Source: Anas platyrhynchos (lineage: Eukaryota > Chordata > Aves > Anseriformes > Anatidae). Taken from it: a stretch of 64,000 bases of DNA. The notes under the pieces were generated by a model. That model saw only the letters and a list, made by a program, of their open reading frames with translations. It was not told the DNA's origin and did no database searches. The position numbers and the translations under genes are program-made. The stretch covers positions 2,947,001 to 3,011,000 of the forward strand of contig NC_092607.1 of assembly GCF_047663525.1 (NCBI RefSeq). The letters run 5' to 3'. Numbering within the stretch: the stretch's first letter is position 1; every line of letters begins with the position of its first letter. This document shows positions 17,646-36,604 of this stretch, one piece after another.

Positions 17646-18585
17646 GCAGCTCTGCTCTGTTTTACAGCCACACACATCTTCCTGCTCCCTAACAGCCCCT
17701 GGGAGAAGCAGGGAGCCGGACGTGAGCACCGGGGCCAGGCCTCCAGCACGCGGAGCTGGGGGGACGAGAGCTAGGGGTGGCTCCTTTATCCTGCTGGAAC
17801 ACAACGCCCTGGGGATGGCACCGAGGAAGCACAGGGCGAAAGGACAGACTTGCAGCCCCACGGGAAGGCAGGAGGAAAGAGCGGCCGTGCTGTGCCATGT
17901 GCCCCAAATCCAGCACGGGTGCAAGGTTTGGAGCGGTGGCACGGCTTTGTTGGTGAAAATCCCTCGGACAGGCTCCCAGGGTGGCCTTGGAGCACCTGTC
18001 CCCATGGCTGCGGGCAGTGCAGGGGGACAGCCCCACGGTGCATGCCGACAGGCTCTGCGGTGACAACAGGATGCGCCACCTCCGCCGCCACACCGCCCAC
18101 ACCGGCTCACCGCGGCGCCTCGTGCCCTGCTCGTCCCCACGGCAATGGCGTTGGGGAGCATCAAGCGACAGCAGGTGCCCACCCGGCCACCCTTGTGCCA
18201 CCCCACAAGGTGCCTCCGAGATGCATCGCGGCCCCCCCATTTGCCTCCCCCTCCGTCAGCCCCTGGCTCAGCACAGCTGCCGCCTTCCCCCAGCCCCGGC
18301 ACATTTGGCAGGAACTGACTCAGCCTACCTTTTCCTTCCCCAGGAGGCAACCGCTCTGCAGACCCCGCCGCGCAAACAGCGTTGTGGTTCACCTGCAGCC
18401 GGCGGCAGGAGTGCGCTGTGGGAGCAGGAGGCTGCCAGCACACCGCTGGAGCCCAGCACCCTGCTCCCCAAAATGCAACCCCAGCCCGGGATGGGGCTGA
18501 AGCAATCCCCCCCCCCGCACCCCACTCGGCTCCAGCTGCGTGTCTACCCGAAACACCCACGAAAAACAGTTTATAAATTAACCGT

Positions 18586-18591
18586 TTTATT
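18586..18591 (-). terminator. SNAI1: SNAI1 polyadenylation signal AATAAA
   Basis: TTTATT on the plus strand gives AATAAA on the gene strand, about 990 bases after the stop codon. It sits at the end of the AT-rich 3' UTR. Cleavage would fall near 18565-18575. Confidence 0.6.
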
Positions 18592-18675
18592 GAATATCAA
18601 TAAACTGTATATAATTATATAAAAAGTTTCATCAGTACAAAATCGTGGCACAAAAATATAAATACCAGTGTACCT

Positions 18676-18694
18676 TTGAAATGTAAACATCCTC
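18676..18694 (-). promoter_or_regulatory. SNAI1: Overlapping miR-203 and miR-30 sites in SNAI1 3' UTR (pair 1)
   Basis: In the mRNA the complement of 18682-18694 pairs perfectly with nucleotides 1-13 of miR-30a (seed site TGTTTACA). The complement of 18676-18683 is CATTTCAA, an 8-mer match for miR-203. The two sites share two nucleotides. Repression of SNAI1 by miR-30 and miR-203 is reported in mammals. Confidence 0.75.
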
Positions 18695-18899
18695 TTTGTT
18701 ATGGTTCGGTGAAAACAAGGTCCAAAGAAAGATGCATTCAGGAGGCACCTGTCAATAACCATAAATAGCACTTTTGGCACACACCTGTCGATGGGCAGCC
18801 TTTGGACAGGCCACCATTGTATCAGCTGACAAGTGCCTGCTATTAGTCACAGTTCTCTTGAAAAGCAGTTGTTAAGAGTCATATTAACAGGTGCTTGAG

Positions 18900-18906
18900 T
18901 GCATAG
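18900..18906 (-). promoter_or_regulatory. SNAI1: miR-153 7-mer site in SNAI1 3' UTR
   Basis: TGCATAG on the plus strand equals miR-153 nucleotides 2-8, so the mRNA carries the complementary CTATGCA. A 7-mer can arise by chance, but a stronger 8-mer for the same miRNA lies at 19042-19049. Confidence 0.45.
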
Positions 18907-18912
18907 CTGCTC

Positions 18913-18938
18913 TGTAAACAGGATTCTTGTTTGAAATG
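18913..18938 (-). promoter_or_regulatory. SNAI1: miR-30 and miR-203 sites in SNAI1 3' UTR (pair 2)
   Basis: The complement of 18913-18920 is TGTTTACA, a second miR-30 8-mer. The complement of 18931-18938 is CATTTCAA, a second miR-203 8-mer. Ten bases separate them, a spacing at which two miRNAs can act together (general knowledge). Confidence 0.65.
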
Positions 18939-19041
18939 GCTACCAATGCCTTTTATGGACACCGTTAATCTTGTAGGCATTGCAAATTGTCATTGTGCTG
19001 GGGAGAAGCAGCTGCTTCACAACTAATGTGATACTGTATTA

Positions 19042-19049
19042 TTGCATAG
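19042..19049 (-). promoter_or_regulatory. SNAI1: miR-153 8-mer site in SNAI1 3' UTR
   Basis: TTGCATAG on the plus strand is the first eight nucleotides of miR-153, so the mRNA has a full 8-mer site. Targeting of SNAI1 by miR-153 has been reported in human cells. Confidence 0.6.
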
Positions 19050-19086
19050 TTACACCTTCTACAGGCGACATATATACAATCGGGGC

Positions 19087-19104
19087 GGGGGGGGGGGGGG
19101 GGGG
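19087..19104 (-). repeat. C18 tract in SNAI1 3' UTR (poly-G on plus strand)
   Basis: Eighteen G in a row on the plus strand, preceded by CGGGGC. In the transcript this is a long poly(C), a potential poly(C)-binding-protein site. The plus strand could form a G-quadruplex. The length may be misassembled. Confidence 0.85.
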
Positions 19105-19580
19105 CTGTCTTAACGCTCCTTGTCCTTCATTACAAAAATATTGGGTCTTAACAGTTACCAAGTGGTTATGGTAAAAAAAATAACAAACAAAAAAACACAA
19201 AACAAAACCAACCCAACCCCCAAGGCTTCCCAGTTGCAATGCTCCACACCGGTGGCACAGCCGGGGCTCAGGGCTGAGCGCCTGCAGCACTGGGCACCCA
19301 GCGCAGGCTCCGGCATCGCCCGCACCGGGGCTGCGGCTTCGCACGGCTTCGGGCTCTAGTTTGCCACCCAAGCACGAGTCCGGTCCCGTGCCCTCGGATG
19401 TCCAGGGTGGGAGAAGGATCAGGGATTGCACAGGAGGCACCAATGGAGGCGTGCTAGTCCCTTAGGGCCCGGCAGGGCTGCGCGCGGCCCGAGGCGGTGG
19501 GCAATGGTGACAGGAGGCTGCTAAGTCCTACAGACACTAGTTACAATATACGAGTTGAGTGTTAGCAGGGCACCGCGTCC

Positions 19581-22043
19581 TCAGCGCGTCCCAGAGCAGC
19601 CCGTTTCCTCGTGCTTGTGGAGCAGTGACATACGGGAGAAAGTCCGGGAGCAGGTTTTGCACTGGTACTTCTTTACATCTGAATGGGTCTGCAGGTGGGC
19701 GCGCAGATTAGAGCGGTCAGCGAAGGCCCGGTTGCAGTGTGTACAGGAAAAGGGCTTTTCACCTGTGAGACAAAGAGAAACGTTCCCAATTAACCAGTGC
19801 ATCAACACACAGAGAATATCAAAGACCAGGGCATTCATTAGCCAAAGTTTGTGGGGAGCAGCGTGAAAAGGAATGCAGGCTGTTAGTATTCGGCCCAGGA
19901 GCCAGCGCTGCACAGCCTGCATTCACTCAGAGGAAAAGCCTCAGAGTCGGGAATTTCCTACTCAGAGAAAAAACTCTGGTCGGAACCCCACAAAAACGGT
20001 GCCAGTAACATCTGCGAGTGGCAAGGCAGCTCGGCTTACAAATGCAGCCACGACATTGAGCTGCGGCCCAAGCTAAGGGAGCCGTCTGCGGAGCGGCAGG
20101 GAGGCGAAGCTCTGTTAATTATATCATAGCGGCTGAAAGCTGCCGGCTCCAGGGTGAGTGCAGCTATTTCCTCTGCGCCCGCGCTCCCCCTTCTCCTTCC
20201 CGGCTCGCATTGAAAAGCCCGGCCGGGGTGAATTCCCCTCAAAGGCTCTTTCGGAAGAAACAAACGCGTATGCTCAATTTGGAAAGCACAATCGAGCCTT
20301 CCCGGCTTCCTTCAGCCGTCATCTTTAGTACGCTGAGAGGGTGTGAAATCAGTGCCAAGCGACAATTAAACTGTCCCGGTAGCACCACAAAGGATGCTCG
20401 GGAGATGCATTGTAGGCGCGGGGCGGGCTGCAGCTGCGGCCCCGCACAACAGGTGCAGGGGGCAGCCACCAGCACCTGCCCCACGCACATCCCAAACCTC
20501 CCGGTGCCCCGGGGAGCACATGGAGCCCACGGAGGTGGGCTGGGTGCTCAGGCAGAGATGCTTCTAGCACAGCGTGAGGCACCCCAGTGGCACGTCACAG
20601 CCCTGGTTCGTGAAATTCATGGCGAGCACGTGCCGGCAGCTCAGGGCTGGCTGGTGCGGCATGGATTTATGGGCTGAGCCTTGACCCCACACTCGGTTCC
20701 AGACAGGAGGATATTTAAAGGACGTTTTAGAGATGTGCTGAGGGGGTTTGGGAAGCCCTTATCTTCCAAGATAATACCCCAACTGCTGATTTGCTTCGGG
20801 CTGCAGAGCGGGGAAGCCACGGGCAATAGGGGAAGGAGGGAGAGGGGCGAGAGCCAACATTACCGGTGTGCGTCCGGATGTGGCCCTGCAGCAGCCAGGG
20901 CCGGGAGAAGGCCTTGCCGCACATCTTGCAGACGCAGGGCAGCGTGTGGCTCCGGATGTGCATCTTGAGAGCCCCCAGGCTCACATACTCCTTCTCGCAG
21001 TACTTGCAGCTGAAGGATTTCCTGGTCTGGGCATCGCAGTGCAATTGTTTGTGCTTGGAGAGCCCGGCGAAGGTGGAGTAGGCCTTGGCGCACTGGGCGC
21101 AGCGGAATCGCTCAGCGGTGGCGGGGGCTGAGGTCGGGCTGGGAGGCCCCGAGCTCTTGCCCTCGTCCTCCTCGCTGGAGAGCACTGTCAGGTCCAGGGC
21201 CGGCGCCGCGCCGCCCGCTGCCTCCGCCTCGGTGCCCGGGCCAGCCGGGAAGAGGCTGGAGAGCAGCCCCGCGTCCCACACCAGCGGCGGGTAGTAGGCA
21301 CCGGGGCCGAGCACCTCGGGTGGGGGGATGACGGACAGCGGGCACGTCTCGTACAGCAGCGGGGCGGCCAGCACTGTGGGGACAGGCAGCACTCAGCGGG
21401 GTGCCCAGCCCCTGAACGGGGCAAGGGGACCCCAACCCACCCCATGGGGGGCTGCGCACCCAGAGGAACTTGGTGCCTGAGCCACACCACGGGGCTGTGC
21501 AACCCTTCCGGGGCAGAGGAACCCAACCACATCCCAAGGGAACCTCCATGCCCCAACCGCCCCAAAGCCAGAGGAACCCCAGGGACCCCAACCCACGCAG
21601 TGAGGCACACCAGCCTACCCTGGGGAACACAGCCCCACCCCACAGGAGCTCAGCACCCAAAGGCAAGGGAGGTGTCAGAAGGGGCCCCTGCCCACCCCGC
21701 ATTACGGGGTCCGCACCGAACCCACCCCATGGGGAAAGCCCCCGGGGTCGCGTCCCCGCTCCCCCACCCACCCCACAGGGGGAGTCCCCTGGGGCAAGAA
21801 GCACGGGAGACCCCAGACACCAACCCACCCGTGGCAATTAACAAAACTAACCGCCCAGAGGCAGGCAAAAAACCTCCCGGCCGCTCCCCCCCGGGGGACA
21901 GAGGCGCCCCCGCGCCGTGCAACAGCCCCAAGCCGTCGGGGGGGGGGCCCGGCACAGCACGCACCGGTCTGGCTCTCCAGCTCGCTGTAGTTCGGCTTCT
22001 TGCTGGCTGAGAAGTGCTTCTTCACCAGGAAGGAGCGCGGCAT
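19581..22043 (-). CDS. SNAI1: Snail family zinc-finger repressor SNAI1 (three exons, 256 aa)
   Basis: Coding exons on the minus strand are 21965-22043, 20864-21373 and 19581-19762 (79, 510 and 182 nt). All junctions are GT-AG and the joined frame is 256 codons plus stop. The protein is a nuclear repressor that binds CAGGTG E-boxes (CDH1 and others) and drives EMT and neural-crest delamination. Residues 1-9 form the SNAG motif (MPRSFLVKK), which recruits KDM1A/LSD1 and other corepressors in the family. Residues 27-114 are a proline/serine-rich linker with an acidic DEGKSS stretch at 96-101, where mammals have the beta-TrCP DSG degron. Five zinc fingers follow: about 116-138, 147-169, 173-195, 201-223 and 229-252 (the last C2HC type). 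Human SNAI1 has only the last four; this bird copy keeps the first, as SNAI2 does. The start is the ATG that begins the SNAG motif. The neighbour RNF114 gives the conserved vertebrate order. Identification is secure. Confidence 0.97.
20029..20420 (-). promoter_or_regulatory. SNAI1: Candidate intronic element in SNAI1 intron 2
   Basis: This part of intron 2 is less GC-biased than its surroundings. It has a kappa-B-like GGGGAATTCA (complement of 20229-20238), a CCTTTGAGG word resembling a TCF/LEF site just beside it, and AT-rich AATTATATCATAG near 20117. Rel and Wnt inputs to snail genes are known in animals. Function here is inferred only. Confidence 0.25.
21420..21845 (-). repeat. Degenerate minisatellite in SNAI1 intron 1
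   Basis: Most of the 591-bp intron 1 consists of imperfect repeats of words such as ACCCCAACCCACCCCA, CCAGAGGAACCCC and ATGGGG at irregular intervals. It keeps long chance open frames on both strands, which are not genes. Confidence 0.6.
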
Positions 22044-33242: not shown

Positions 33243-36200
33243 ATGGATACAAAATACAAAGACGATTTATTTAGGAAGTATGTACAGTTCCATGAGTGCA
33301 AACTGAGTGTCTCTGACAACAAGCAGCGTCCTATTAATGATGAGTATTTGCGAGTGGCAGCGTCCGCCTTATTTTGCCTTCCCAAAATTGATCCCTTTTA
33401 TAGATTCCGGTTGATAAAATTTTATGAGATGGCTGAAAACTCACTGAGAGCTCTGAAATCCTCCAGTTTACATTCTCTCCATAATGCATTCAGCATGCTT
33501 GAGACGGTTGGAATCAATCTCTTCCTTTATCCCTGGAAAAAGGAGTTCAAAAACATTAAGGTAAGACATCTTCTATGTGGCAGTAGTGAGAATGTGATTT
33601 ATTTTGCTTTTTTAAAACATTTCACGCGTTTCCCTTAAGACAACTCTTTTTTCCTGCACATTAGGGTAATGTCTGTATGTAGAGCTGGTAAGCAGGAGCT
33701 GTAAGAAAGGTAAAATGCAAAGTTTGTGCTGGTGAGGCTGTCCTGACAGCAGAAGTATAAGCTCTGTCTGCATTTCTGAAGTAATTCCTCAAACAGAGGA
33801 AGAGCTTATTTTAAGGTTTTTGGTCACCTGTCCTATTACTGTCCTAATATCTTCTGAGAGATGCTTTTACTAGGGTGAGTGATTAAGTCGTGTTTAAGCT
33901 CACCTGTAGCTTTGGTTTAATGTTCCAACAGCTATTAACGTAGTCTAAGTACTAACAATCAGTGCAGGCTTTCAAGTGGACACTTTGCCGGGGTTCCCAT
34001 GCGTTATGTGATAATGGTAAAGGAACTTCTCTGAAATATTTCCAGAATATTTTTGCTTGTCAGTTCTCAATTAATGAGATTTTGATTTTAATGCGCCTTC
34101 AAATTATCTGTGCCAGGACCTCACAGTGAAGTGTAGGAACTCATGCATTGCTCGGCCTGAGTGCTGGAAGACAGCTACAAGTTCTCTGCTGACAATTTTT
34201 TGTTTTGTCTTTTGCCTGTCCTTACATTCTTACTCAAAGCTCCTGCAGCGTTTCCATAAGGGTTACTGCAGGTGACCTCAACATTTGAGGCTTGAAAGTT
34301 GGATAAAAACATTTTTGGTTTATTTTCGTCTTTTGCAGGTTGCGTGTGCCAGTGAGATGGGTGTTTTTGCTTTTTTCCTAAGATGCTTTTGCAATTTAGC
34401 AGAGAATTTGAGTGGTTCACTTTATAGATCCATAGAATGGTTTGGGTTGGAAGGGACCTTAAAGATTCTCTAGTTCCACCCCCCCTGCAGTGGGCCGGGG
34501 CGTTTGAGAGTCGTCTTTCTCCAAAGAGAAAACTGGTCCTTTCTTCACTGTACCTTTATCACTGTGCTTAAGTTCTGCCCTTGGAGTGCTGGCTGATCTA
34601 TCCAGGGTATGTCTTGATGTGCTGGTGTTACTGGCTTTGGTTGTGCATTTTGGATCCAGTATTGTTCTTTACAAAGACACGGTGGCCAGGCTATTCCTCC
34701 CTGTGATCCAGAACAACTCCAGCTGTTAACAGCATGCCTCAGGTATGGCAGGTGCTAAGGGAACTTCAGCTTGTGCAAACTCCCCTCCATATTTGGGCTT
34801 TTTTAGTGGAAACTCTTGACCTGATACTAGATTAAAGAAAATAGGCACTGAAGTTGCATAGTAATTATACACCCGCAGACACCTCCACACAGAAAAGTGC
34901 ATCTGAGTATATTTAAGCCTGAATCGAGGAGGGCTGCGGTGCTCTTGCAGGAATACCGAGCTCTTGTTATCTTCAGCTGTCGCCTGTCCAAGGGGAATGC
35001 ATTAAATCTCTGCCTTTTGGCTTTTATGCTAGACTTCTAAACAGAGACATTTCTGGTACGTGTAAGAGTTAGTGTACAGGGTAGTGAATTAAATCAGCAA
35101 GGAGGACATTATGCTAATCAGGCTTTCAGTTTGAACCAAAGTTCTCCTACTCTGAATTTGCCTCATGCAGAATTTCCATGTGCTGAACAGGAGGGAGGCA
35201 GAAATGGAGTTTGTCTTGCCATGGGAGACGTGTGTGTTCTCTGTCATCGTTCTGTTTAATTCTGTAGTATCTGTCACTGAACTATCTGAACATCTAGTCC
35301 ACTGAATTTGTAACCTAGTTTTCCTTTTATTCTCCACCCCACCTCCTTAGACCTACACTGGACCCTTTGTTTATTACGTGAAGTCTGCTCTAACTGAAGA
35401 TGATGTAAGGCAGATTCTGAACTACATGGGCTATGTCCAAGAACTGGGAACAACATACAAGCTCAAAGAGCAGGTTGATGCCATCCAAGTGAAAATGGTT
35501 TCATTTGAACTCTTTTTGGCCAAAGTGGAATGTGAGCAGCTCCTTGAGATTCATTTGCAAGTGAAGGATAAAGGTTATTCAGAGATTGATGTCATAAATG
35601 AACGGAAAACCAGCAATGAAGATGTTCGAGGCTGCTCGGAAGCCATGAAGCAGCGTGCAGAGTGCAAGGAAAACCTAAACACCTCCATGGCACGAATGGT
35701 GCTTCAGAAGTCGGCAAGCGAACGGGCCTCTAAAGATTACTTCAAGCCAAAGGTGAGCAAGCCTTCTAAATCAGTGGACACATACGATAATTACTGGGAA
35801 AATAAGAAACCACCTTTGATGAGCTCTTTGAGTCTCAGGAAAGAACCAATTCTGGTCGATGCGGAAGATGACATTAAGGATGAGATTATCCGTCCGTCAC
35901 CCTCCCTCCTGACAATGTCAAGCTCCCCACATGCGTGTTCCGATGAATTCTTGCCAACTTCATCTCATCACAACGGCATGTTAAGAACGAATGTCCCTTA
36001 CAGCTCCTATTTTTCTGCTCAAGAGGACTTAGATTTATATACTGACCCCGATTCAAGAAGTATGTTGAATTTTAAAAGACAAGAAGCTATTAAGCCTGAT
36101 GTGTGGCTGCTAAAAAACGATGCCAACCCTGTTTACCACAAGCGCGCCCATCTAGCCAAAGAGACAGCTTCCATCAAGTGCCAAAACTGTGGTGTACCTT

Positions 36201-36604
36201 GTGGCACTTCTGTTTGCCAAAAGTGTGACAATCTGTTCAACTCTAGGCAGGATTATCCAGCAGTGAAACAGAGCACCTACTCCATCAAACCTGTTCCAAA
36301 TGACGGCTTGTCTCCTGTGTCGGCTTTAAGAGAGAAATCTCAGTACACGTCACAGACTCAGAGTCAGGAGAGGGCTTCTCAGTTCAGTTCGAAATCCAAA
36401 TCTTCAGGCACCTCACGCTGTGGCTTTTGTAACCGATCCGGAGCTGCAAACACGTGCACATTTTGCTCAAAAGTCTCATGTGACACTTGCCTCAGCGCTT
36501 ACTATTACGATCCCTGCTGTAGAAAAAGCGAGCTTCACAGATTCATGCCTAACAATCAGTTAAACTATAAGTCGGCCCAGCTGTCCCACGTAGTTTATAG
36601 ATAG
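33243..36604 (+). CDS. SPATA2: SPATA2, adaptor linking CYLD to LUBAC (two coding exons, 523 aa)
   Basis: Coding exons are 33243-33560 (ends AAG then GTAAGA) and 35351-36604 (preceded by CTCCTTAG), joined in phase 0 to 523 codons plus stop TAG; human SPATA2 is 520 aa. The N-terminal half holds the PUB domain (roughly residues 60-220), which binds and activates the deubiquitinase CYLD. The PUB-interacting motif DLDLYTD has its key Tyr at 336; it docks on the PUB domain of HOIP in LUBAC. Zinc-ligand clusters begin at C383 (CQNCGVPCG) and C463 (CGFCNRSG, then [12 protein letters not shown]). The conserved C-terminus ends in SHVVYR. In mammals the protein controls linear ubiquitin signalling, TNF-induced necroptosis and male fertility. 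The ATG at 33243 is the first in frame after an in-frame stop at 33204. Identification is secure. Confidence 0.97.
34424..34490 (-). mobile_element. CR1 3'-end fragment in SPATA2 intron
   Basis: The plus strand reads CCATAGAATGGTTTGGGTTG, then GAAGGGACCTTAAAGATTC and CTAGTTCCACCCCC, the reverse complement of a CR1 3' terminus. It is about 65 bases, antisense to SPATA2, and non-functional. Confidence 0.9.

Follow-up and report, generated by a model that had tools for sequence, protein, structure and literature searches.

The 3' UTR of SNAI1 in the duck Anas platyrhynchos carries, in the mRNA sense, five 8-mers and one 7mer-m8 for miR-30, miR-203 and miR-153, and this site cluster is real and non-random. 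The gene lies on the minus strand of the window, as we call the whole 64,000-nucleotide stretch of DNA that was analysed. We give a probability of about 80% to the reading of this region as an ordinary, if strong, miRNA-responsive 3' UTR of an EMT factor. It corresponds, in a bird, to a regulatory UTR that is already known, and is not a duplicated switch; miRNA regulation of SNAI1 is mostly known biology and the region is a largely expected control region. The cluster is most likely functional. In cells making miR-203, miR-30 or miR-153, loaded Argonaute would bind the sites and both SNAI1 mRNA and protein would decrease; with the fall of the miRNAs at EMT, SNAI1 would be released. The published work on these three miRNAs and SNAI1, in the portions of the papers available, was done in mammalian cells, mostly from human cancer, and a clear sequence counterpart exists in a bird, where the embryo allows testing of neural crest EMT.

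The SNAI1 gene and its microRNA sites

The gene carrying the cluster is, by its coding sequence, SNAI1; its protein, like the SNAI2 protein of the same genome, resembles that of the chicken. The part of the last coding exon with the zinc fingers and the stop occupies 19581..19762 (minus strand; acceptor AG 19763-19764), and exon 2 is at 20864..21373 (minus strand; acceptor AG 21374-21375, donor GTAATG from 20863), with predicted boundaries; C2H2 zinc fingers are present in both. The start codon region (MPRSF...), read from the sequence, is at 22029..22043 (minus strand), and MPRSFLVKK, a Snail-family protein start, is encoded in an upstream frame. When the last-exon frame was compared with proteins of known structure, human SNAI1 (3w5k) was fifth among the 60 matches listed (E 1.1e-37), with four other multi-finger proteins scoring higher among these matches. 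In addition, SPATA2 was identified at 35378-36604 in the same window (Pfam PF21388), which agrees with the known neighbourhood of SNAI1. A search of the window at Rfam gathering scores revealed no structured RNA of a known family.

The stop codon TGA is at 19581-19583 (minus strand) and the 3' UTR extends over 18565..19580 (minus strand). Its only AATAAA or ATTAAA polyadenylation signal is the AATAAA at 18586..18591 (minus strand; UTR 990-995). We inferred the cleavage site from this signal, 21 nt past it, and the length of 1016 nt is therefore to be read as about 1016 nt.

Sites were defined by a Watson-Crick match to miRNA nucleotides 2-8, the 8-mer having also an A opposite nucleotide 1. 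All six lie on the minus strand. In the mRNA, from 5' to 3', the first is the miR-153 8-mer (19042..19049; UTR 532-539; predicted duplex -13.9 kcal/mol), followed by miR-203 8-mer no. 2 (18931..18938; UTR 643-650; -9.4 kcal/mol), miR-30 8-mer no. 2 (18913..18920; UTR 661-668; -9.1 kcal/mol) and the miR-153 7mer-m8 (18900..18906; UTR 675-681; -11.4 kcal/mol), and then, closer to the poly(A) end, by miR-30 8-mer no. 1 (18682..18689; UTR 892-899; -20.9 kcal/mol) and miR-203 8-mer no. 1 (18676..18683; UTR 898-905; -11.6 kcal/mol). The last two sites form pair 1 and overlap by two bases, at 18682-18683. Together with the miR-153 7mer-m8, pair 2 makes a miR-203/miR-30/miR-153 triplet, in which the distance from start to start is 18 nt between miR-203 no. 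2 and miR-30 no. 2 and 14 nt from there to the miR-153 7mer-m8. The initial annotation had placed all six sites exactly to the base and on the correct strand, that of the mRNA, and we also recovered the two-base overlap and the pairing of the pair 1 miR-30 site with 13 consecutive miRNA nucleotides (miR-30a nt 1-13, thus from nt 1). The span it gave as 375 bases is actually 374. It was silent on the opposite order of the sites in the two pairs and on the triplet formed with the miR-153 7-mer.

Strong pairing beyond the seed was seen at miR-30 no. 1 only; the other five sites have little of it (-9.1 to -13.9 kcal/mol). Predicted accessibility is uneven. Ranked in percentiles of the UTR, it is highest for pair 1 (89th) and miR-203 no. 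2 (86th), lower for the miR-153 sites (65th and 67th) and lowest for miR-30 no. 2 (53rd).

The cognate miRNA genes are present in the genome. We looked for exact matches to miR-153, miR-203 and miR-30a/d/e in the 1.26-Gb genome of 42 contigs. The 20-nt miR-153 sequence and the 20-nt miR-203 sequence each had one exact genomic match, with hairpin energies of -48.9 and -38.8 kcal/mol respectively. Sequences of the miR-30d, -30a and -30e type were found in three places, again within hairpins (-32.0, -36.6 and -38.4 kcal/mol respectively). Activity of the SNAI1 sites in this bird seems plausible.

Excess over chance and the origin of the doubled sites

To compare the number of sites with chance, 2000 dinucleotide shuffles of the SNAI1 UTR were scanned with 93 seeds of broadly conserved miRNA families. 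The 1016-nt UTR contains nine 8-mers where 1.79 were expected (P 0.0005), four of the nine belonging to other families, namely miR-96, miR-205, miR-338b and miR-451. The 7mer-m8 sites were not in excess (6 vs 5.84 expected). In the distal 511 nt of the UTR there were seven 8-mers vs 1.35 expected. The miR-96 8-mer, at 18773-18780, separates pair 1 from the triplet; its predicted accessibility is close to mid-range for the UTR (45th percentile, as measured one base off).

It is conceivable that one site each for miR-30, miR-203 and miR-153 is functional and old, and that most of the second copies were gained by chance, the UTR being AT-rich. At least one of the 93 families had two 8-mers in 1.75% of the shuffles, which speaks for such gains. 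Two doubled families, as found in the duck, did not occur in any of the 2000 shuffles, whether the whole UTR or its distal 511 nt was used, and we regard this explanation as unlikely.

A duplication is a different way to obtain two sites of each kind: an ancestral miR-30/miR-203 module would have been copied within the UTR and kept as a dedicated composite switch, in line with the initial annotation, to which the paired architecture looked like a duplicated or constrained composite switch. Every miR-30 site does stand next to a miR-203 site, and when two sites of each kind were placed at random, the members of both pairs came within 18 nt of each other with P 0.0026 in the UTR and 0.010 in the distal 511 nt, the 18-nt limit having been chosen after seeing the data. 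The miR-30 sites also lie in a direct repeat of 19 nt, 74% alike, although 8 of its 14 matching bases belong to the 8-mer itself. The order of the sites, however, is reversed, since in the mRNA sense pair 1 has miR-30 and then miR-203, whereas pair 2 has miR-203 and then miR-30. With the 8-mers masked, the flanks of the pairs gave a score of 13.0 vs a shuffle mean of 16.3 (P 0.99). Twelve flank comparisons (four flank pairs, three scoring schemes), each with two nulls, gave 0.095 as the lowest of 24 P values; it came from the stretch of 30 nt that precedes the miR-30 sites in the mRNA, where CCAT and CAAA-like words align. We therefore found neither the same order nor similar flanks in the two copies, and because of this the duplication of the pair was rejected; as an account of the UTR it is very improbable.

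The two pairs also differ in spacing, pair 1 being overlapped and pair 2 offset by 18 nt, so they would not be expected to act alike. The initial proposal of a single paired architecture is therefore not supported, one arrangement being overlapping and the other spaced within the published cooperative range. In addition, the overlapping 14-mer of pair 1 was considered as a recurrent genomic element. It is not clearly recurrent: its genome-wide matches (at least 71) are somewhat, not far, above those of the reversed control pattern (at least 43), and the candidate was set aside.

Human SNAI1 and duck SNAI2

The proposal that all three miRNAs repress SNAI1 agrees with reports in human cells (PMC3325969, PMC7017348, PMC5430627, PMC6484688, PMC8056031), each consulted as far as its text was available. 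A human SNAI1 reporter was repressed by miR-203 and the repression was lost together with its predicted sites, of which there were two (PMC3325969). It was reported that miR-30a represses human SNAI1 via the 3' UTR, with the site at 706-713 (PMC5430627), and that miR-153 does so via a site at 440-447 (PMC8056031). Both miR-30 and miR-203 repress human SNAI1 in PMC6484688, where one miR-30 and one miR-203 region were counted, and the review PMC7017348 lists the regulation of SNAI1 by these miRNAs, known in mammals.

The human and duck genes are thus alike in that the same gene is addressed by the same three miRNA families, which were reporter-tested in human cells. We compared the two UTRs by published site counts and positions, and on this basis the human order of miR-153 (440) and then miR-30 (706) is also seen in the duck, with miR-153 at 532 and miR-30 at 661 and 892. 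Some of the sites may be descended from a common ancestor with mammals. The number of sites differs: the duck has two 8-mers each of miR-30 and miR-203, and the human gene one region of each, or two predicted miR-203 sites. The single human regions would fit second copies gained by chance in the duck, and the two predicted human miR-203 sites argue against such gains.

In a limited look at the open literature we did not find the sequences of the human SNAI1 sites or the position of the human miR-203 site; the available portions of PMC8431469, PMC13302136 and PMC9500380 gave no SNAI1 site positions. Among the titles and abstract openings of open papers covered by this limited look, which is no proof of absence, no treatment of miRNA sites in a bird SNAI1 UTR was found. 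The doubling of the miR-30 and miR-203 sites is possibly new.

The paralogue SNAI2 of the same genome (L010, minus strand) also has two miR-203 8-mers, 303 and 423 past the stop, and in addition one miR-30 7mer-m8 downstream of the stop. The two paralogues are thus alike in their two miR-203 8-mers and in having a miR-30 seed match. They differ in that SNAI2 has no miR-153 seed match in the 2768 nt past its stop, that no miR-30/miR-203 pair was found downstream of this stop, and that no 12-mer is common to the SNAI1 UTR and the first 1700 nt past it. We also considered whether the surroundings of the miR-203 sites in both genes share an origin, and did not retain this: in the best of four comparisons, between one SNAI2 site and SNAI1 miR-203 no. 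2, 11/24 flank bases were alike (P 0.033 uncorrected), which is not significant once corrected for the four comparisons. In the chick embryo miR-203 was reported to restrain Snail2 before neural crest EMT (PMC11293684 and PMC9440755, in the text available), and the doubled miR-203 sites of both paralogues fit that work.

Scans of viral contigs and genome contigs revealed no other vertebrate SNAI1, nor stray copies of a vertebrate SNAI1 as contamination. Two single matches, L013 (47% alike) and L017 (44%), were confined to residues of zinc fingers. The second of these is in a contig filed as Methanolobus, an archaeon, with stretches 44% like the zinc fingers of SNAI1 exon 2; perhaps this reflects eukaryotic contamination of that Methanolobus assembly.

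Site spacing, Argonaute binding and other features of the UTR

According to the accessible text of PMC4081082 and PMC2374997, joint repression by two sites is strongest at seed distances of 13-35 nt, a rule measured with let-7 site pairs, and repression is weaker when one miRNA has a single site pair that overlaps; PMC2374997 gives an optimum of 16-30 bp. A further study (PMC9650897, consulted in part) reports that about 15-100 nt between seed starts is often synergistic and that, where the sites of two miRNAs overlap, both cannot be occupied at once and the effects are additive, not cooperative. The 18-nt step of the triplet falls within all three ranges. Its 14-nt step falls within 13-35 nt only, and is outside the optimum of PMC2374997 because 16-30 bp excludes 14. 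The seed starts of pair 1 are 6 nt apart and overlapping, and so outside the 13-35 nt range; by the published spacing rules, the overlap makes it an either/or site, which is probably occupied by only a single Argonaute at any moment.

Both arrangements resemble types described in PMC9650897, as far as its text was available. The triplet matches the close spacing of "neighborhood" cotargeting, and pair 1, like "seed overlap" cotargeting, has sites that would not be bindable together, although the overlap dealt with there is extensive (e.g. 5-7 nt) and that of pair 1 is 2 nt. In the main text of that paper, to the same extent, miR-30 was matched once and miR-203 not at all.

Spacing of this kind suggests cooperation at the triplet and exclusion at pair 1. 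Neighbouring Argonautes could cooperate at the triplet, and the response would be strongest with the miRNAs present together; pair 1 as an either/or site would provide robustness, not synergy. Since the same miRNAs have both an overlapping pair and a spaced triplet within 263 nt, the UTR would be a convenient natural test of exclusion vs cooperation.

These considerations may be carried further. Birds, unlike mammals, could have a two-part control of SNAI1: close to the poly(A) end, miR-30 and miR-203 would share an either/or site, and further upstream miR-203, miR-30 and miR-153 would act through a separate cooperative triplet. The second miR-30 and miR-203 sites would be of independent origin and would have been retained, with miR-203 doubled in SNAI2 too. 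If this were true, the UTR would respond to the same miRNAs in two ways, as "any of them" and as "all of them". We consider such a bird-specific arrangement rather doubtful, and keep to the reading of an ordinary miRNA-responsive UTR.

We also noticed that the SNAI1 3' UTR contains three Snail-type E-boxes (CACCTG/CAGGTG), at 18746, 18782 and 18888, in a stretch of about 150 bases; for the window as a whole, the expectation is 0.19 per 170 bases. Such a cluster is not unique, because two other places in the window have three within 160 bases. It could mean binding of SNAI1 to its own gene, or nothing. Finally, the plus strand has a run of 18 G at 19087-19104. In the SNAI1 3' UTR this run reads as C18, with the miR-153 8-mer about 38 nt further downstream, and is possibly a site for a poly(C)-binding protein or a variable tract.
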